64,000 nucleotides of DNA from Litomosoides sigmodontis (taxonomy: Eukaryota > Nematoda > Chromadorea > Rhabditida > Onchocercidae): positions 6,285,317-6,349,316 of the forward strand of contig OY718804.1 in the NCBI GenBank assembly GCA_963070105.1, in the 5' to 3' direction. The number at the start of each line of letters is the position of its first letter. Position 1 is the first letter of the stretch. This document shows, piece after piece, positions 29,359 to 63,876 of the stretch. The notes below the pieces were generated by a model that had not been told where the DNA came from, searched no databases, and saw only the letters and a program-made list of their open reading frames with translations. Position numbers and translations under genes: made by a program.

Positions 29359-32041
29359 AATTGGATCGAAAATGAAGTGATTCCAAAAGTTCTTTATAAT
29401 TCCATTAATCCAATGTTCCAGGCGAACCGCTCATAATAGCATCGCAAAAAAAGCCTAAAACTGACTTTTGTAAAAATCTCCAAGCAAAAACATCTTCTAC
29501 CCTAACATAGCAAAAAACACAATGAACCGACCACCGTTGACCACCTTCGGCCCTTTTACAGTTTTTCCATATCAACAGACCTATCGTATTCAAGTTATCG
29601 GTGGCAAAAACCAAACAAAATAGAGCAACTCCATGCCGAACATTTCCGATATTCTTAGTCGTACGTGTTAGCAACTCGTATCTCTCATGTCAAACCCCAT
29701 CATCCCCTATACTGCAAACTTTGAGACGTCCTCTTTCCCTCTCCTGGCAACAGGAGAAGGAATGAATGAATGGTGAGGGACGCTGCTGCTGCGATTCACT
29801 TTCGGAGCAACACTTATCGGTGCAGCACTTCGAGAAGCACATTTGAGAGTCCAGCCGTCTGTTCCTGAATTATCTCTTTGCATGCTCTTTTCAGAATACT
29901 TTTTCCGTAGCTTCTACGCAACCATTCAACTGAAAATGCGGGCAGTCAGGCTGCCTACACGGATGCTTTGCACTTAAACCCTCTGGTTATGTAGCTCGAC
30001 CTTCTTAGCATCAAAACAGCCCACACTTTCAGATTCTCACCTGGCCCTTCTAAGGCCTTCTAAGATCCGATGCTCAGAAAAGTTAAGGCCATTGTGGTCA
30101 TGCGTGGTCAACGCTTGCGTCATTCCTTACTTCCTCACATCCTTTGCACATCTCACCCCACTACCGCTACTCCGTCCCATCGAGAAAATCGGATTATTCA
30201 GGACAACTACTAACAATTCACAACATGTCGTTATTCGTCTGTTCTGAATGAATGCACGTTACAGGGAGGATGCGAAACATTCGGAGAAATATTATGTCGC
30301 AGCGTAAACAGAGAAATGAATGATTGTAAAGGAGTGGCAGGATGTCATAGTACTGTGGGTTTGAGAGAGGAGGAGACGGCGTGCTGAGGGGAGGTCTCGT
30401 AAACAAGCCGTCTCGTGCATCCTGCAGGTCAAAGGTCGAAGGAAACGGTGGTGTTAGCACGTATCGCATAGTTCAGAGAGGTCACGGGATGCTGTGAGAA
30501 TTCACGGACTTTTCTTGCCGCAATGAGAGGATGGGGAGGGGGGGGGAGGGTGTTGGGGGTTGGATTACCGTAAGGTTGCCACCATTCGGATTATTCAACT
30601 TCCGCACCCTTCACTGCTTGTCCTCGTCCGCGTACAGTTTTTTCCTCCTGCATGATGGCCCCCTCCTGCCGGCAACGCGCAACACAGTTACACGCACACC
30701 TTTGTGGCGTATGTTTAGTCATAAGTGCAAATTCTGCATGCACTTGCACGACTGCGTTAACATCCTAATCGGTTCACACAGCGAGCTGTTATTAATAGGG
30801 CAATGGATTAGTTGCAGTTGTTTATGACGCTTCAATAATGTGTGTTACGCTAAGATCACGTGCACAGCGTGCAACGCACTCACAACTATATGATGCAGTG
30901 AAGAAGTGCGTTGTTTGCCACACATTCGCACGTGACGCGTTTCACACGGGAGAGATCGCGAGCGAGCGGTGAGGGGCGTGATGGACGTAGATAGATATTA
31001 TTCCTCAAATTCTGTGACATGGCAGTGTTGTGCAGCGGAGAAAGTTGTGGTTAACGAGGAAGGTTGAGTTACAATCAGATTTATTCCACCCCCCGCGGTA
31101 TCGCGGTGTTCGGAGGAGGAAGCACCAGTTGGTGGCTTGTTTCTCTGTAGCGGATGAGGCGTTATGTGTTGTGGTACTAGTGGTAGTGTCTCATCCGCGT
31201 CACCCTCTTTCCCCTATTATTCCGATCGTCGCCACCCCCTATTAGTTCGACGACTAGGCGATCAATACATCACTGAGTATCAATCAATTTTCCATCCTGA
31301 GCGTCAGCCAAAGTTCGTTCTTCATTCTCTTCGCGAACTACGATTCGCAGCGTCTCGTAGCTGCTTTCCTTTTTTTGCCGGTTTTCCGTCCGGTTATGAT
31401 GGTTCCCGCTGTTGTCACTGGATTCCTTCCGGACATTCCCGAGCAGATTTCGCAACTTTTCCACCAAAATTTAGCAAAAGATGCGTAATTTTACGATTTT
31501 GCATGCTTTCGGTGAGAAATGCAAAATCAGCCCGCAAGATTTGCTGGCGAGTTTTTCGTAAAATTTACTGCTTTCATTCCACACTTTAGTTTTTAATTAT
31601 AATTCGAGCCTTTAACGGTCGTGAATACACCTCCAGGTTGTTTTTCCAATCTCTTTGTTTTTTTGGAAAAGCGTATCCAACTTTGTGACCAGCAAAACTC
31701 ATGAAGGACTTCCATGGAGTTGGTTATAGAAATAGTGGGAAACGGCAATAGTATAAGAGGATGAAGAGAATTAGACGGTTATACGGTAGTGGAAGTGCGT
31801 TATCGAGGATGAAAAGTGCACGAGAGAGTATGTTAGTGCACGTGATATGAGGATGTTGTTGGGTTCAGGCTGCTAAAAAAGAGTTGCTTCATTGTCATTT
31901 AATTTTTAATTTTAAAGAGTGAGCGGGAAATATTGTACGTTTTCATCCTTACATGCTTGCTCCTTTTGAAGTGAATTAAGTAAGGGTAAAGTGAGTGAGT
32001 GATGTGCTTGGAAAAGCGGATGTTCTCTTAGAGGAGGCAAG
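29359..32041. other. Less AT-rich intergenic block between VPS29 and histone H3.3
   Basis: By eye this block, especially 29700-31500, is richer in G and C and in CG dinucleotides than the rest of the window. It contains runs of CACG/CGTG, a G-rich tract at 30530-30562 and pyrimidine-rich patches. Several open frames overlap on both strands (for example 30531-30827 and 31164-31589, plus), but their products are Arg/Ser/Pro/Cys-rich with no recognisable domain and no clear splice structure. It lies between two divergent gene starts (VPS29 minus, H3.3 plus), so a promoter role is plausible. Confidence 0.45.
30530..30562 (+). other. G-rich tract with G-quadruplex potential
   Basis: Contains GGGG, then a run of nine or more G, then GGG and GGGGG separated by one to four bases, satisfying the usual four G-run pattern. 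It lies in the intergenic block upstream of histone H3.3. Confidence 0.6.
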
Positions 32042-32236
32042 ATGGAAGCGGTCGACTGCCCTTTTCATCTCTCGTCCATGATGGAAGGACAAACAAAGGT
32101 TGGAAGTACTGAACTGATCGGTTACTTTAGGACATTTCTAAATAGTCTGTCGTCAGTGGTTCGAATGTTCTGGAGAATGTTTTGTTTGTTGCTTGCATTG
32201 CTGTTCTTGGAATTTTATTTCTTCAATATGCAGTAA
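32042..32236 (+). CDS. Short ORF upstream of H3.3 (doubtful)
   Basis: 64 codons starting ATGGAAGCG in a purine-rich context (GAGGCAAG before the ATG). The product begins MEAVDCPFHLSSMMEGQTKV and ends in a hydrophobic segment (WRMFCLLLALLFLEFYFF) that could span a membrane. It ends about 180 bases before the H3.3 ATG. It may be a tail-anchored micropeptide, an upstream ORF in the H3.3 leader, or chance. No homology recognised. Confidence 0.2.
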   Translation: MEAVDCPFHLSSMMEGQTKVGSTELIGYFRTFLNSLSSVVRMFWRMFCLLLALLFLEFYFFNMQ

Positions 32237-32419
32237 TATGCGAATTCTGCCAGATTGACTATTTCGCCCTTTACTTCCTAAAATCCTGAGCAAGGCAATA
32301 CATTTCGTGTCGCATGAGTAGCATATTGCTTTTAATTTGTGCAGGTATCATTTTTCAGCTACCAGTTGTTAATTCAGCTTTCGATTTCTCTCGTGAATTT
32401 TTGCTAATTGTCATCTACA

Positions 32420-33370
<951 letters not shown>

Positions 33371-46326: not shown

Positions 46327-46630
46327 TAGGCCTATTACATTACATTCCTTCTATTCATTGAAATGAAAGGTTGTAAGGTATTTGAGCAATAATTCATGGC
46401 ACTTTCACTTCTTTGTTTTTTATCATTTAATATTGTCTTTTCAGTGTTTTTAAAACTTTGAAATGTTTCGTCACATTCTTTGCATTCCTAAATCGTTCAG
46501 TTTTGAAATGAACTCTGCAAGTGACATCTTGAAATTCCGAGAAACTTTCAGGAATTGCAGTACTTTATGATATGAAGCATTGTAATAATATATTGAATAC
46601 ATTCGGAAACTTTTGAGAAGCAGAAGAAAT
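43483..46630. other. Intergenic region REP-1 to PUDP-like gene
   Basis: 3.1 kb without a supportable exon on either strand. It holds the REP-1 3' UTR, AT-rich sequence and a long GA microsatellite (46281-46323). Confidence 0.5.
46281..46323. repeat. (GA)n microsatellite
   Basis: About 20 uninterrupted AG units, about 310 bases upstream of the PUDP-like start codon. Confidence 0.9.
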
Positions 46631-47829
46631 ATGCCGCGAAATAAAGCCTTAAAAATCACGCACGTGATATTTGATTTGGATGGATTACTCATTGATACGG
46701 AACCAAGTTACACGGAAACTCACACGTTTGTTATGGAGCAGTATGGGAAAAGATTTACGTTAGACTTGAAGTCGCTCACGATGGGTATGCGACATGAAGC
46801 GGCGATCAAATTACTGCTCGATAAGGTTAATCAATTGCGACTGTATTTGAATTTTCCGTAAAACAAAGAATTTTAAACGCTTACTTCTTTCAGTTCGATT
46901 GAGTGTAAATTCAAAATGCTAAGTGAAGCAAATGATTCATCCATGTTACCGAGTAACTGTTCAATTTGTTCCTCAGGTTGGCCTGACAAATAAAGTGAGC
47001 GTAAAAGAGTACGATAACTTTTATTATCCATTACTTCTCAAGAAGTTGCCGCATTGTCCAAAAATGCCCGGAGCGTTACGGCTAGTACGACACTTTTATG
47101 ATCACAACATACCGATGGCGATATGTTCTGGATCTAGCAATTTTTCGTTCAAATTTAAAACAATGAATCACAGGGATCTTATTGATTTTATACCTGTACA
47201 GGTGTGTTACTCACTTCGTTTAATGCACTTTATCAATTTTTGATCAACACAAGTTCACTGCCTTCATCAATTTTCTTCCAATAGTTTCTCAAGTAAAAGT
47301 CACTGATTTTAAGAGCTTTCATCTTTTGTTTTCAATTTTTGCCGGAAGCAGAAAGTCAGATAACGCACCGTGCCTCGCAGTTTCCGTTCTTAAGACTAAC
47401 GTAATTTTAGCGCAGAAGTGGAAATAATTAAATTTAAAAAAAAAGATTGAAAGAATGCACATATATTATTTTCCTTGGTATGAGGGCGCGCAGTGAAATT
47501 CTTTTCAAAAATATCAAGCATTCAAATTCTAGGTGAAGTGTAGCAGCGATCCAGAAATAACAGAAGGTAAACCATCACCAGATGCATACCTCGTAACGAT
47601 GAGAAGATTCCAGAATCCACCAGTGGCTTCCAGTAATGTTTTAGTCTTTGAAGATGCTCCGAACGGTGTTTTGGCTGCTGCTCGTGCTGGCATGAATGTT
47701 GTTATGGTACCTGATTTAAGGTACGCAAAGGTGCCTGATGAAGGGAAGGAGCAAGTTGTTGAAGTACTGGAAAGTCTGGAAGATTTCAGGCCAGAGTCAA
47801 TAGGCTTACCAGCCTTCGACTATTCATGA
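46631..47829 (+). CDS. HAD-family phosphatase, pseudouridine-5'-phosphatase (PUDP/HDHD1) group
   Basis: Haloacid dehalogenase-like hydrolase; the closest family I recognise is PUDP (HDHD1), which dephosphorylates pseudouridine 5'-phosphate. Three exons: 46631-46825, 46977-47201 and 47533-47829, all phase 0, 238 residues (human PUDP 228). Motif I is VIFDLDGLLIDTEP with Asp15 and Asp17. The helical cap includes TFVMEQYGKRFT and LTMGMRHEAA. Motif II is CSGSSNFSFKFKT, motif III Lys lies in EGKPSPDAYL, and motif IV is VFEDAPNGVLAAARAGMNVV. The start ATG at 46631 gives the normal family N terminus. AATAAA at about 47861 is a likely poly(A) signal. Substrate is inferred; other sugar-phosphate HAD enzymes are close relatives. 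Confidence 0.92.
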
Positions 47830-49741
47830 ACATAATTATGTCATTTTCCACTTCAAGCCTTTAATAAATGTCATTTTGTATGTATATAGTACTGGAAATT
47901 AAATTAGCTTAGTTATTTTCTCAGTCACTTACTTCTCTCGGGTATGATGAAAAAGAGCACGTGAAACATTTTATTTGCACCCAACTGCACCCAATTTTAA
48001 AAACAATATGTTTTTGAAGGGATGTGGGAGAGGTTCGTCGTTTGTACTCAATGAAGTTAATAGTTAGAAGAAATTCGAATTCATTTTCAGATAGTTGAAA
48101 TTTTTCTGTTCTTGAAACTTTTGTTATTAATTTGTTTTTATTCTTGAAACTTCTGTTATTAATTTGTACAAAATAGCGATAGCTTAGTGATCGGCGTCAC
48201 CTATGCTTGTGACCACATTTGCTTACAACGCCAACAACTTTATTGCTAATAAAAAAATTGCTAACAATGAGACGGTGAATTTGAAATATTTTTTTTTTTT
48301 TAAAATTGGAGAGCTGGTTTGAAGAGGAAGATGTAAGAGTTATTTCATCATCGGTTGTCTTTCATTCACGAAATTTGTTACCATCTAATGGTGCACACAG
48401 AACGGCGAGTGGAGAGACAATTGCGCTTTGGTAGGAATCAGCGAAAAAAGTTTTCTCTAATTCTTTCCTAACTTCAAACCTGACTTTTACAATGATATCC
48501 TCATGTTAACACAGAACAGGAAATCTTTTCTGTAAGCATGCGGTGGTATTAAAATTTAATTATTCAATCGTAGTGACGCAATCCAAGCATTCCCTTTGAT
48601 GATTTATTGAACAGAATTTGATGATCGGAGCGTATAGTTAGAGTAACACTACGAGCTTCCACAACTTTGACGTTCGGTTGGTCGAATGATTGAGGTGCTT
48701 CATAGCATCGTCTTCGTCATCGAAGTTGAGATAGGCATTTCCTGGTTCATTGCTTCACTGGTTTTCCTCTGATAAGTGAATTCTAAATGAATGACACATT
48801 TCGATACTTTCGCTGTGCATCTATAAATTTAGTGTTACGGGAATGTAAGTGAACTTCAAAATGAGAAATTAAGTGTTAAAAAACAAATCTACGAAGGAAT
48901 AATTGAAAGTCGAAATTTCTTCGTTTTCATTCAAAATCATGCAATTTGTTTCTGTGAAATTTTAATGGAAATATTTAAAAGTTAGAGTTTGATTGAGTGA
49001 AATTGAAATTTCAATGGAAATTTTCTCGAAATAATTTGCCTATTGCTTAGGCTTAGGCTCAATATCAGATATAAAAACAATGCGCCACACTACAAGCGCA
49101 CATGTCGCAGATAGAAGTAAAAACTAGCGTAAAATTTTGAAATAAACTAAGAAAGCGAATTCTACTAAAATCATTGTTTAATTTGTTTCTCAGATACGGA
49201 AAGTTTTACTTTTGCGCTGCTCTACACAGCTTCAGTTAAATTGAAGGATTTAATTCGAAATTTTAATATTTTATACTTTCGTCTAATTGTGCTTTAATTG
49301 CATTCGATGATTTTTTTGTCATGCAGACAACTAATTTTGTTTTTTCCTCAAATTTAATTCAGTGTATCTTTGAAATGGTATGTCGTAATCATTTCAGCGG
49401 TGACTTCTTTAACTCCATCATACATATCTCATTAATTCGTAAGATGGTTAAAGCCTATGTGTTCTGGATTTTTAACAACAGTTGTATTAAATATTGTAGT
49501 TCAATAATGAGTAATAAAATAGAAAGTAAAAAAAAAGTATATTTCAGGCTCCTGAAGAAAGGTCCATGAAAAAACATCCATGAATGCGTAAAATTATTAT
49601 TGTCACATATTGGACTTATTGTTGTGCTGCGAAAATCCTTTTTCAATTAAATTTTCATATATTTTATTCGTTTTATTGATTAGGAAACATAGAAAATACG
49701 AGAGGAGCATAAATTAAAATTTGAAAAAATAGCTGAATATC
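47830..49741. other. Intergenic region, converging genes
   Basis: 1.9 kb between the PUDP-like gene (plus) and the histidine-rich gene (minus). Contains a two-copy tandem duplication (48109-48167) and an open plus-strand frame at 49321-49569 with no recognisable product. Confidence 0.5.
48109..48167. repeat. Two-copy tandem duplication
   Basis: The 27-base segment beginning TTCTTGAAACTT and ending TTATTAATTTGT occurs twice (48109-48135, 48141-48167) with one mismatch. Confidence 0.85.
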
Positions 49742-49978
49742 TTAATCCCACTTCCATTCTCCGTGATGTGAGTGATGACCGCCATGATGTTGATGATGAT
49801 GGTGGATATGTCCATGATGCCATGGAAAATGTCCATGATGGTTGAGATGATCATGATGGTGATGGTGATAATGATGCCACGGGATGTTCCAGTCGTCGTC
49901 CCACCAGCCAGACGCTCTCACCGACACCACCAAAACAGCCAACAGCAATGTTGCAGCAGCAAATCGTACTGATACCAT
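49742..49978 (-). CDS. Secreted histidine-rich mini-protein
   Basis: 78 residues: a clear signal peptide (MVSVRFAAATLLLAVLVVSV, then RA) and a mature part of about 55 residues containing 24 histidines in HH, HHHH and HHHHH runs. The runs are interspersed with Trp-, Asp- and Gly-rich pieces (SGWWDDDWNIPWHHY near the start, GEWKWD at the end). Such composition suggests extracellular binding of zinc, copper, nickel or heme; this is inference. The start is supported by a TTGCAG acceptor two bases before the ATG, which with a GTAAGC donor at 50067-50072 makes a 92-base 5' UTR intron. A TATATAAA box sits further upstream, and AATAAA signals follow about 70 bases after the stop. An upstream in-frame ATG (49999) would lengthen the N terminus if that intron is not used. 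No family recognised. Confidence 0.7.
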   Translation of the reverse strand: MVSVRFAAATLLLAVLVVSVRASGWWDDDWNIPWHHYHHHHHDHLNHHGHFPWHHGHIHHHHQHHGGHHSHHGEWKWD

Positions 49979-49980
49979 AA

Positions 49981-50072
49981 CTGCAACACACGCACTCATC
50001 CGATTCCGTCAAACAAACGATCCGATCAGAAAGAAATTTTAGGAAGAAGGAAACGGTAACAGAAAGGCTTAC
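49981..50072 (-). other. Putative 5' UTR intron of the histidine-rich gene
   Basis: On the minus strand the donor is GTAAGC (50067-50072) and the acceptor GTGTGTTGCAG ends at 49981, leaving TT before the ATG. A spliced-leader acceptor at the same AG is the alternative reading. Confidence 0.45.
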
Positions 50073-50138
50073 TGAGTGCTTCCGGAAGAGGTTTTCTGCT
50101 TTTCGGGGTTGCTTTGAGGAAGTTATGGAACGAGGTGC

Positions 50139-50146
50139 TTTATATA
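50139..50146 (-). promoter_or_regulatory. TATA box of the histidine-rich gene
   Basis: TATATAAA on the minus strand, about 160 bases upstream of the ATG at 49978 and about 70 bases upstream of the putative 5' UTR intron donor. Position is consistent with a transcription start near 50110. Confidence 0.45.
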
Positions 50147-52717
50147 TTTAGCGTGAAAACAGGCTTAGAATTAGGTCGACGGGAAGCGAATTTTTTCTAA
50201 CTTCTTGCCACACCACAGCCCTCCTATCCCTCCCTGCTGGTACCATTAGCTTGTGGCCTCATTTCTGGCGGACAAGTTGCATTGCGACATTCCCATTAAT
50301 TCCACCTTCCCTCATTAAACTGAAACAAAATGCGCCTTCTAATATTCCCATCATTATTGTTGCCAGTAACGCTGTCACACCGTCTCGAACACTTCTCATC
50401 GCATCACTACGCTCTCCACTCAGTGCATCCCGCGGGAAGAAAATACGAACGACTGATGCGTCGCAAGCGGCATTGCTCCATTTTTTAAATTTTACCATTT
50501 AATATGGGAGGTATTCGACGATTAAGAGATCTTTGCACTCCCTAATGGACAATCATTATGTGTTTAACAAACTACTTTGAGAGAGCTACAAAAGCATTCA
50601 GTTCTTACCGAAACACTGCACTGCAATGGTCAAGTTGAAGAAGCAGCTGGACATATCTTGCGGTGCTCGAACTCAAAGTTAAATGTACTTTTTTACAAAA
50701 CACAGTGAAATAGTGCAACAGATACCTAATGCAACTGCCAACTGCAAGTTATGCTAAGTGGTGCCGTAATATTCACCTATGTAGAAAGGGTTGTTTCTGT
50801 CGTACGACATCATTTACAAGTTGAAAACTAATTGCAATTCAGCTAGCTCACTTGCATTTCAATTCAGTCTTATGAAAGCTTTTTTTTTGAAATTCACTTA
50901 TAAGACACTCATTTCATTCTCTCTAACATTTTATAATTTTAAACACTTATCATGCCAACCGATACCATAAATTACTTCAATATTTCCGTCGCGAATTATG
51001 TCAACGCAAATGGGACCATCGGATATCAGGCGAAGGCCAACACTGACAACGTTCCGCATCGACAATTAGTAATAATTTCATTTCATCCCGTAATGTGACA
51101 GACTCAATGTATCTCCTTTCCTTGCTCATGCAATTAGCAAGAGATTTCTCATTTCAGCAAATGGAAGATAAAGCGCAAGTTAACTACCACTCGCCTTAGA
51201 TGTCGATTAACGTGCAAACAATTTATTATTCATGCATTATTGATTTTCAATTGGTATATTTCTGGAGCGATTAGATTTAGTAGTTAGCTGTTTCAAGCAT
51301 TCCAATAGTTTCCTTCTAATTGGTAGGGTCATTGAACAGTATGATGCTTCTTTTGCCGACTTTATGGATTATGATTTTAATATCAAACAGGGAGATAATC
51401 TGTTCTTCAATCATCTTAGATAACAACGGATGAACTGAATTACAATTGGCATTCGTTACAAATTAAATGTGTAAACAGTAGCTTCATCAAACAAATTTTA
51501 ATAGGTTTACCTGATAAGTTTAATAAGTTCACCTGATTTATCAATTTCAGCAATACTATAACTACCCGACATTTTGGCAGAAGAACTTCGATACAGTGCT
51601 TACTGTAACGCAAACTGCGCACCCTACAGGATAACGAATTTCACTTACCAATAAATAATTTTTAGACGATTGGGAGACACCTGGCAGAGGGGTCACAATT
51701 AACCGACAATAATTTTAATCACTTCAAAAGTTGTTAAATCACACGTTAAATCACACACCTGTTCAACAAACTCAGTGTTTCGGCATTTTTCGATTACCTT
51801 CCTCTAATTGCAAGCCAATATGCAAATGTTTTATTTTTGACATTTTACAAAAAATTTTTTTCTTCATAGATTGCTCTGAGAATTGGGAGTAATTTGATAT
51901 TTCTTATAGTAAAATTTAACAGGAGATAGCATGCGTCACTTACAATTTGTTAAGCCTTTCTGAGAAGAATTTTTTGAAAAGTTTTATGTTGGAAAAATTC
52001 TCAGACTTTATTTGAAGCACTAAAAGAGCAAGATTCTTCTATGCAAGTAATCTAGACTTTCAAATTGCTTAATCAATAAATAAGAAAAAGTTTCATTAGC
52101 AAATTGCAGTGAATTCTTCTTCGATGTCAATTTAATGTGAATTTTGAAATATATTTGATGCTCAATAATGGTGTCTTCTTGGTCGTTCCATGAATTCTAC
52201 ACGACACGCTGCCGTGTATTTCGCTTTTGCTTATCTTTCCAATCGTTTTGATGTAAAAGAAGAGAAAGTGAATTTTTCAGTGCTTTTTATTTTGAAGAAA
52301 AGTAGATTTGTTCCTTCTGGAATTTATGAATGCTCGATGGTTCCACAGTCTTCCTACGTAACACTTCCCATCGTCCATGACACCGTGAATTAATAATCAT
52401 CGTCAACATACAGCCGATTTGTGATACCTCTTCTGTAATTCATTAATTTGAAAAATTTTAGTTTTGCAGTTTCATACAATACTATAAGAAGACAGAACAA
52501 CTTGTAGAGGAAGCCTCGTCATTTTTAGAAGATTATGAGAGATAACAAAATCGGAAAAGTCCTTCATTCATGCTGAATACGCGAGCATTAGCTCCACTTC
52601 TACTTCTTTCTAATCCTCTACCCAGAGAAATTTCCAGACCAGTGCTTGTCGCAGGATATCTCGGGCGAATCCATACATTTCATATTTGTCAATCTTTGAG
52701 CGCAATCTGCGAAGAAC
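50147..52717. other. Intergenic region, histidine-rich gene to SH2 gene
   Basis: About 2.6 kb between two minus-strand genes. Overlapping 240-base frames are open on both strands at 50259-50498; the minus one has a hydrophobic stretch (GVTALLATIMMGILEGAFCF). No family, splice context or start supports either. The rest is AT-rich with nothing recognised. Confidence 0.4.

Positions 52718-59112: not shown

Positions 59113-63876
<4,764 letters not shown>

Follow-up and report, generated by a model that had tools for sequence, protein, structure and literature searches.

HRW1, a Litomosoides sigmodontis gene for a predicted secreted peptide rich in histidine and tryptophan, and its narrowly distributed family

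A short open frame on the minus strand of the 64,000-nucleotide stretch of Litomosoides sigmodontis DNA analysed here (the window) is so dense in histidine codons that it raises two questions, namely whether it is a gene at all rather than a stretch of CAT-type repeat that happens to stay open and, if it is a gene, what its product would do. The composition of the encoded peptide stands out locally, the densest other stop-free stretch of 55 residues in the six frames of the window having 7 His. Genome-wide, runs of five His codons (CAYx5) were counted 2121 times in the forward and 2194 times in the reverse direction, against 10709 and 12072 for a reversed-pattern control; given that such runs are frequent, a His-rich composition is weak evidence for a gene, and it is conservation that carries the case.

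The frame at positions 49742-49999 is intact and comprises 85 codons (85 aa) counted from its first ATG. The second ATG, at 49978, is the likelier start of the gene, which we name HRW1 (Table 1), because it yields a short, ordinary signal peptide, because an acceptor-like sequence immediately precedes it, and because the annotated homologue from Loa loa described below starts one residue ahead of that point. A longer form that starts at the upstream ATG may also exist, since this ATG is in frame in both paralogues of HRW1 and the length differences up to the second ATG amount to 6 and 3 nt; the short stretch between the two ATGs is probably the tail of an intron or outron, and may be translated. 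The signal peptide of the original prediction is present by sequence in residues 1-22, and signal peptides are alike in HRW1, both paralogues and the Loa protein in a four-protein alignment. With cleavage placed after VRA by the -3,-1 rule, on which all counts for the mature part depend, the mature peptide contains 24 His among 56 residues, in agreement with the 24 in about 55 counted previously, together with 7 Trp, 6 Asp/Glu, 1 Lys, 0 Arg and 0 Cys. HRW1 has one Tyr.

A genome search with the HRW1 protein recovers two paralogues without stops, HRW2 and HRW3, on the same contig at a distance of 1.08 Mb, both about 75-77% identical to HRW1 at the protein level (77% for HRW2 and 76% for HRW3 in this search); further genome searches, started from the window protein, from the Loa protein and from the promoter, found no fourth L. 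sigmodontis paralogue, copy counts from such searches being lower bounds where families are large. Comparison of HRW1 and HRW2 by the Nei-Gojobori method over 73 codons (5 gap codons excluded) gives 20.75 changes over 43.8 synonymous sites and 24.25 over 175.2 nonsynonymous sites (p 3.7e-6, Fisher test on rounded counts), with dN/dS of about 0.2. The synonymous excess is also seen when the poorly aligned C-terminal part is left out (15.5/35.0 synonymous, 11.5/133.0 nonsynonymous, p 3.9e-6) and in mature residues 23-61 only (p 3.5e-5). The HRW1/HRW2 protein is under purifying selection. HRW2 and HRW3, separated by 0 synonymous changes and 1 nonsynonymous change, are too similar for such a test. 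The sole coding gap between HRW1 and HRW2, of 15 nt, preserves the frame.

Beyond L. sigmodontis, a protein-database search with the window protein (E <= 10; 8 candidates) returned a single homologue, the hypothetical protein LOAG_17952 of Loa loa (71 aa; E 1.8e-17; 58% identity over 93% of the query, and 71% identity in the multiple alignment), which was again the sole match, among 187 candidates, in a profile search with all four HRW proteins. Invariant in the four-protein alignment are seven Trp, PWHHY, FPW and a WKW near the end, along with a few fixed Asp, Pro and Gly. All four proteins combine a signal peptide, a WWDxxWxxPWHHY N-terminal frame, an FPW centre and a WKWD C-terminus, a list of features derived from these same four proteins (three L. 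sigmodontis genes and LOAG_17952). The His content, in contrast, ranges from 16 to 24 per protein: LOAG_17952, which is like HRW1 in the type of its signal peptide, its seven Trp and its C-terminal WKWD, differs in that its 19 His are arranged in other runs, and 15 of the 20 HRW1 His that align to an HRW2 residue are still His there. The mature peptides have 49-56 residues and 7-13 HH pairs each, and none of the four contains Cys.

That the Trp residues and the PWHHY, FPW and WKW motifs are kept while His varies is not what a bare CAT repeat would lead one to expect. The alternative that the frame is a CAT/ATG repeat left open by chance can draw on the abundance of CAT-type runs in this genome, on a weak 18-nt tandem repeat within the His part (49796-49861) and on the circumstance that HRW1 is known from genomic sequence alone. 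It has to contend with two intact paralogues, the Loa homologue, a synonymous excess between HRW1 and HRW2 with p about 4e-6, and a TATA box and splice-like sites common to three genes, and we reject it, on the paralogues, the homologue and the synonymous excess, as hardly credible. Frame disruption in relatives, named in the original prediction as the sign of a mere repeat, was found in neither paralogue nor in Loa, all of which have preserved the reading frame, the two termini and the placing of the Trp. Judged by its sequence, HRW1 is a real protein-coding gene and not a bare CAT microsatellite, as had been proposed on the strength of the locus itself.

The previous view that the protein belongs to no known family also holds: the window protein has no Pfam match at E <= 10, and neither it nor the Loa protein, which has no precomputed Pfam domain, matches NCBIfam at the curated cut-off. 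Four NCBIfam matches far below that cut-off (three metal transport proteins and one permease; E 0.084-8) were set aside as coincidences of His tracts, and the one solved-structure match, to a nanobody (E 0.011, query 14-49), as compositional. Scans of bacterial/archaeal and of viral contigs, one each, gave 94 and 21 pattern-matching stretches, respectively, none of which was confirmed as an HRW relative. Filarial proteins are contained in the protein database, since the matches listed (best 120 of 486) for a tRNA adenosine deaminase 2 frame of the same contig, which is 100% identical to an L. sigmodontis protein over 98% of the query, include Loa, Brugia, Wuchereria, Setaria, Thelazia and Cercopithifilaria. 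At the search sensitivity used, HRW proteins were recovered in two filarial genera only, Litomosoides and Loa. Either the family is patchy or else it has been passed over by gene finders; such skipping is likely in L. sigmodontis, given that its genome has three copies and the protein-database searches returned none of them, an absence which hints that genes of this sort get skipped as low complexity. In the open-access literature searched, LOAG_17952 is named in no paper, and no title or abstract start among the matches listed describes the family. HRW is apparently a narrowly distributed family, LOAG_17952 included, that has so far gone undescribed.

Table 1. Positions of HRW1, its paralogues and associated features (window coordinates; those prefixed C2 refer to the entire contig from which the window comes)
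Feature	Position	Strand	Basis or remark
HRW1 coding sequence, preferred start	49742..49978	-	78 aa, stop TAA
In-frame extension from upstream ATG	49979..49999	-	ATG kept in both paralogues
Predicted signal peptide MVSVRFAAATLLLAVLVVSVRA	49913..49978	-	residues 1-22; helix 3-22 in AlphaFold2 model
Predicted mature part SGWWDDDWNIPWHHYHHHHHDHLNHHGHFPWHHGHIHHHHQHHGGHHSHHGEWKWD	49745..49912	-	56 residues
Two AATAAA poly(A) signals	49672-49677, 49663-49668	-	pattern
Acceptor-like site TGTGTTGCAG/	49981-49990	-	pattern
Presumed 5' UTR intron or outron end	49981..50072	-	from donor and acceptor patterns
41-nt run identical in three genes	50008..50048	-	within presumed intron
Donor-like site CTCA/GTAAGC	50067-50076	-	pattern
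Leader	50075-50135	-	HRW1/HRW2 56/60 identical
TATA box TATATAAAG	50138..50146	-	pattern; TATAAAG in paralogues
60-nt run identical in three genes	50148..50207	-	directly upstream of TATA box
Proximal promoter	50150-50249	-	HRW1/HRW2 96/100 identical
Shared block, outer part	50250..50335	-	69/80 identical over 50250-50329; similarity stops about here
HAD-family hydrolase gene neighbouring HRW1	46589..47826	+	open frames 46589-46858, 47533-47826 match HAD families
HRW2	C2:5257606-5257842	-	genome search with HRW1 protein
HRW3	C2:5250571-5250807	+	genome search with HRW1 protein
Inverted-repeat arms	C2:5249924-5250808, C2:5257605-5258489		inner ends within HRW stop codon

With respect to the signals that flank the coding part, the TATA box and the poly(A) signals noticed earlier were both located, and position 50146, at which the locus had been taken to end, falls on the TATA box. 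The proposed 5' UTR intron stands in part: donor-like and acceptor-like sites were found, and their sequences are identical across HRW1, HRW2 and HRW3, whereas the intron itself is presumed from them; SL trans-splicing at the same acceptor would leave a like pattern. Pattern scans of 49601-50420 found no AP-1 site (TGASTCA) and no match to the MRE pattern TGCRCNC or to the HSE and HLH-30 patterns, and a single match to the GATA pattern, within the coding part of HRW1. Given the absence of AP-1 and MRE patterns from this interval, the promoter gives no pointer to metal induction. A scan for bacterial promoters and terminators, a method unsuited to worm DNA, gave none exceeding shuffles.

The similarity of the genes extends well upstream of the coding part. 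HRW1 and HRW2/3 have in common a block that begins near 50335 and reaches the stop codon, past which HRW1/HRW2 identity falls to 9/20. Over 49979-50249, HRW1 and HRW2 are identical at 253 positions and different at 17, with 1 gap, and HRW2 has insertions of 6 and 3 nt besides; the counts by segment, which are 86/91 for the presumed intron, 58/69 for the signal peptide, 119/153 for the mature part and as in Table 1 for the promoter and leader, omit some positions next to the TATA box that hold four differences. With 253/270 positions identical, the upstream DNA is more conserved than the synonymous sites of HRW1/HRW2 (Fisher p 5.5e-11; p 2.2e-10 for 50000-50249 alone, the interval that counts should translation begin at the upstream ATG) and than the 19 fourfold sites, of which 6 are changed (p 0.0018). 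A 386-bp promoter query matches just the three HRW places in the genome. The high identity of promoter, leader and presumed intron would reflect either a regulatory module under unusual constraint or conversion that homogenised the upstream half, and the change near the start codon weakly favours constraint. As for an RNA element, folding of the HRW1 leader is no better than that of shuffles (z 0.50), no Rfam family reaches the gathering score anywhere in the window, and the sole relaxed match in 49400-50700, a snoRNA model at 17.2 bits versus 40 that lies on the other strand in the His part, was rejected.

The end of a HAD-family hydrolase gene lies 1.9 kb from HRW1; domains PF13419 and PF00702 were found in 2 of its 3 scanned frames, the middle frame (46923-47240) having no match. 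HRW3 has HAD genes nearby as well: of two HAD paralogues, with open frames within C2:5244839-5246321 and C2:5248214-5249234 on the minus strand, the closer one is 1.4 kb away. As a genome query, the last HAD exon matches four places, three beside HRW genes and one at C4:4688676-4688957 (minus strand), and two of the four matches have a TGA inside. Because the genes are convergent at HRW1 and divergent at HRW3, the linkage of HRW and HAD looks old. A single recent segmental duplication covering the entire neighbourhood does not fit, the synonymous sites of the HAD copies being saturated (pS 0.79-0.87). An inverted repeat with arms of 885 bp (99.8% identical, 6.8 kb apart) contains HRW2 in one arm and HRW3 in the other, tail to tail, and the two genes look homogenised; the three genes have three stop codons, TAA in HRW1 and TGA versus TAG in the other two.

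Other features of these regions are recorded here as side observations. Between HRW3 and HRW2 there is an open frame of 458 codons (C2:5255272-5256645, plus strand), by eye Ser/Thr-rich with a hydrophobic C-terminus and without a Pfam match at E <= 0.01. To the right of HRW1, frames resembling helicase exons occupy window positions 59791-61770 on the minus strand, and the sole one scanned (60414-60770) has the HA2 domains PF04408 and PF21010. Positions 30001-32000 have a GC content of 0.46, versus 0.29-0.39 in the other 2-kb bins, and no Rfam match at the gathering score; one ORF of at least 120 aa is present in 29500-32500.

Turning to function, an AlphaFold2 model of HRW1 built from four sequences has a mean pLDDT of 60, is confident in no part other than the signal helix 3-22 and, beyond a short helix at 25-29, predicts no structure. 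The calculated charge of the HRW mature peptides, obtained with general pKa values, is -1.0 to -3.4 at pH 7.4 and +13.5 to +18.4 at pH 5. Clusters of imidazoles are ligands of Zn, Cu and Ni at neutral pH and lose these metals in acid. A Cys-free, His-dense, mildly acidic peptide without a predicted fold is best read as a metal chelator or buffer, and we consider it slightly better than an even bet that HRW1 is a disordered chelator or buffer of metal ions of the Zn/Cu type, acting outside the cell or in the secretory pathway. Under this proposal, the seven fixed Trp and the few fixed Asp, Pro and Gly would frame short, variable His runs, whose clustered imidazoles would take up metal at neutral pH and, on protonation in acid compartments, give it up; HRW1 could thereby detoxify, store or pass on metal in secretions of the gut, uterus or body wall. 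We infer the secretion, expression, metal binding, metal identity and tissue of HRW1 alike, and the high expression of the original prediction is likewise putative. With His counts of 16 to 24 beside an invariant set of Trp, the Trp residues may matter more than metal capacity, and recovery from two filarial genera only is a case against a role in core metal homeostasis.

Comparison with known His-rich proteins places HRW1 in a broad context. In operation it would be like Caenorhabditis elegans KREG-1 (F53A9.2), a Cu-induced protein of 83 aa with polyHis stretches, for which partial Cu sensitivity upon RNAi and a reporter in the intestine are described and Cu chelation is speculated by the authors (PMC3578760). 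By description, HRW1 is likewise a short nematode protein with polyHis (24/56 mature residues); the FOS-1 site TGAGTCA of the KREG-1 type is, however, absent at HRW1 in 49601-50420. Two protein searches, at their limited word-based sensitivity, returned no Caenorhabditis protein at E <= 10. HRW1 resembles KREG-1 in size and composition and is no more than a candidate for membership of a KREG-1 group. C. elegans NUMR-1 is also a metal-responsive His-rich nematode protein but is described as nuclear (PMC5604969), whereas the HRW proteins have a signal peptide, a comparison again made by description. The Trichinella spiralis protein Ts-PCHTP is, like HRW1, a nematode secretory protein, with a His tail, and in native form is reported to contain Fe, Zn and Ni, the last perhaps an artefact (PMC2954182); it differs in its poly-Cys domains, the HRW mature parts having 0 Cys. 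With no Cys in any of the four mature peptides, HRW1 is not a metallothionein. The 60-residue polyHis protein Hpn of Helicobacter pylori, which binds Cu (cited in PMC3578760) and also Ni, is bacterial and is like HRW1 in polyHis composition by description.

Three other functions have to be weighed against metal chelation, all of which we consider weaker. The fixed Trp could be there for contact with a membrane or a partner, or for cross-links, and for this reason the structural and defence readings stay alive. Structurally, the HRW peptides might form a cross-linked or metal-hardened part of the cuticle, eggshell, microfilarial sheath or buccal lining, in which Trp and Tyr may provide stacking and cross-links and His the metal bridges known from worm-jaw proteins and from mussel byssus. 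The invariant Trp frame with its variable His count, the low-complexity composition and the lack of a predicted fold in the mature part would all suit such a material. Many matrix proteins, though, use long repeat arrays, and the HRW mature peptides are very short (49-56 residues), without Cys or any long repeat array, with a single Tyr in HRW1, so that we regard a structural role as unlikely. A role in defence would make them His-rich antimicrobials switched by pH or Zn, after the manner of clavanin, a His-rich antimicrobial, and of histatin, which has been linked to metal; they are small and Trp-rich, have a signal peptide and three gene copies, and by calculation become strongly cationic in acid (+13.5 to +18.4 at pH 5). 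Their calculated net charge at pH 7.4 is nevertheless negative in 4/4 peptides, and HRW1 and HRW2 evolve under purifying selection, which leaves this reading very unlikely.

Conceivably, bis-His or His/Trp sites could instead carry heme, given that many of the HRW His adjoin aromatic residues and that nematodes are heme-auxotrophic (PMC3596385). The absence of Cys from all four mature peptides means, however, that the CP motif is absent, and a 56-residue peptide without a predicted fold, albeit in a low-confidence model of HRW1, offers no obvious heme pocket. We infer metal rather than heme from the many HH and HxH pairs, the lack of Cys and of a predicted ordered domain, and the precedents in print for polyHis metal binders, and we hold heme carriage to be highly improbable.

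HRW is, on its sequences, a narrow family that falls within a broad kind already known, and its oddity is that the upstream DNA is more conserved than synonymous sites. Should the upstream DNA truly be under constraint, its identical runs of 60 and 41 nt would be ready candidates for regulatory elements. A bolder proposal, which we think quite unlikely, is that HRW represents a new design of peptide family in the filarial lineage, with an invariant Trp frame and interchangeable His filler. On this view its peptides would be secreted where worm and host meet, there to gain Zn/Cu or withhold it, and one strongly constrained promoter-plus-intron module would govern all copies. Calprotectin withholds metal, and would be one possible opponent of such a peptide. 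Its subunits are described as expressed by host neutrophils when L. sigmodontis larvae enter the lung, in a paper whose main text does not contain the word zinc (PMC5438187).

Among the diseases due to filarial worms are river blindness, loiasis and elephantiasis, for which L. sigmodontis serves as a mouse model. Metal resin makes for easy purification of His-rich proteins, and one such protein, HRP2, is the primary biomarker of malaria. As a family that L. sigmodontis has in common with Loa loa, a parasite of humans, HRW offers a concrete candidate for the handling of metal ions by filarial worms.
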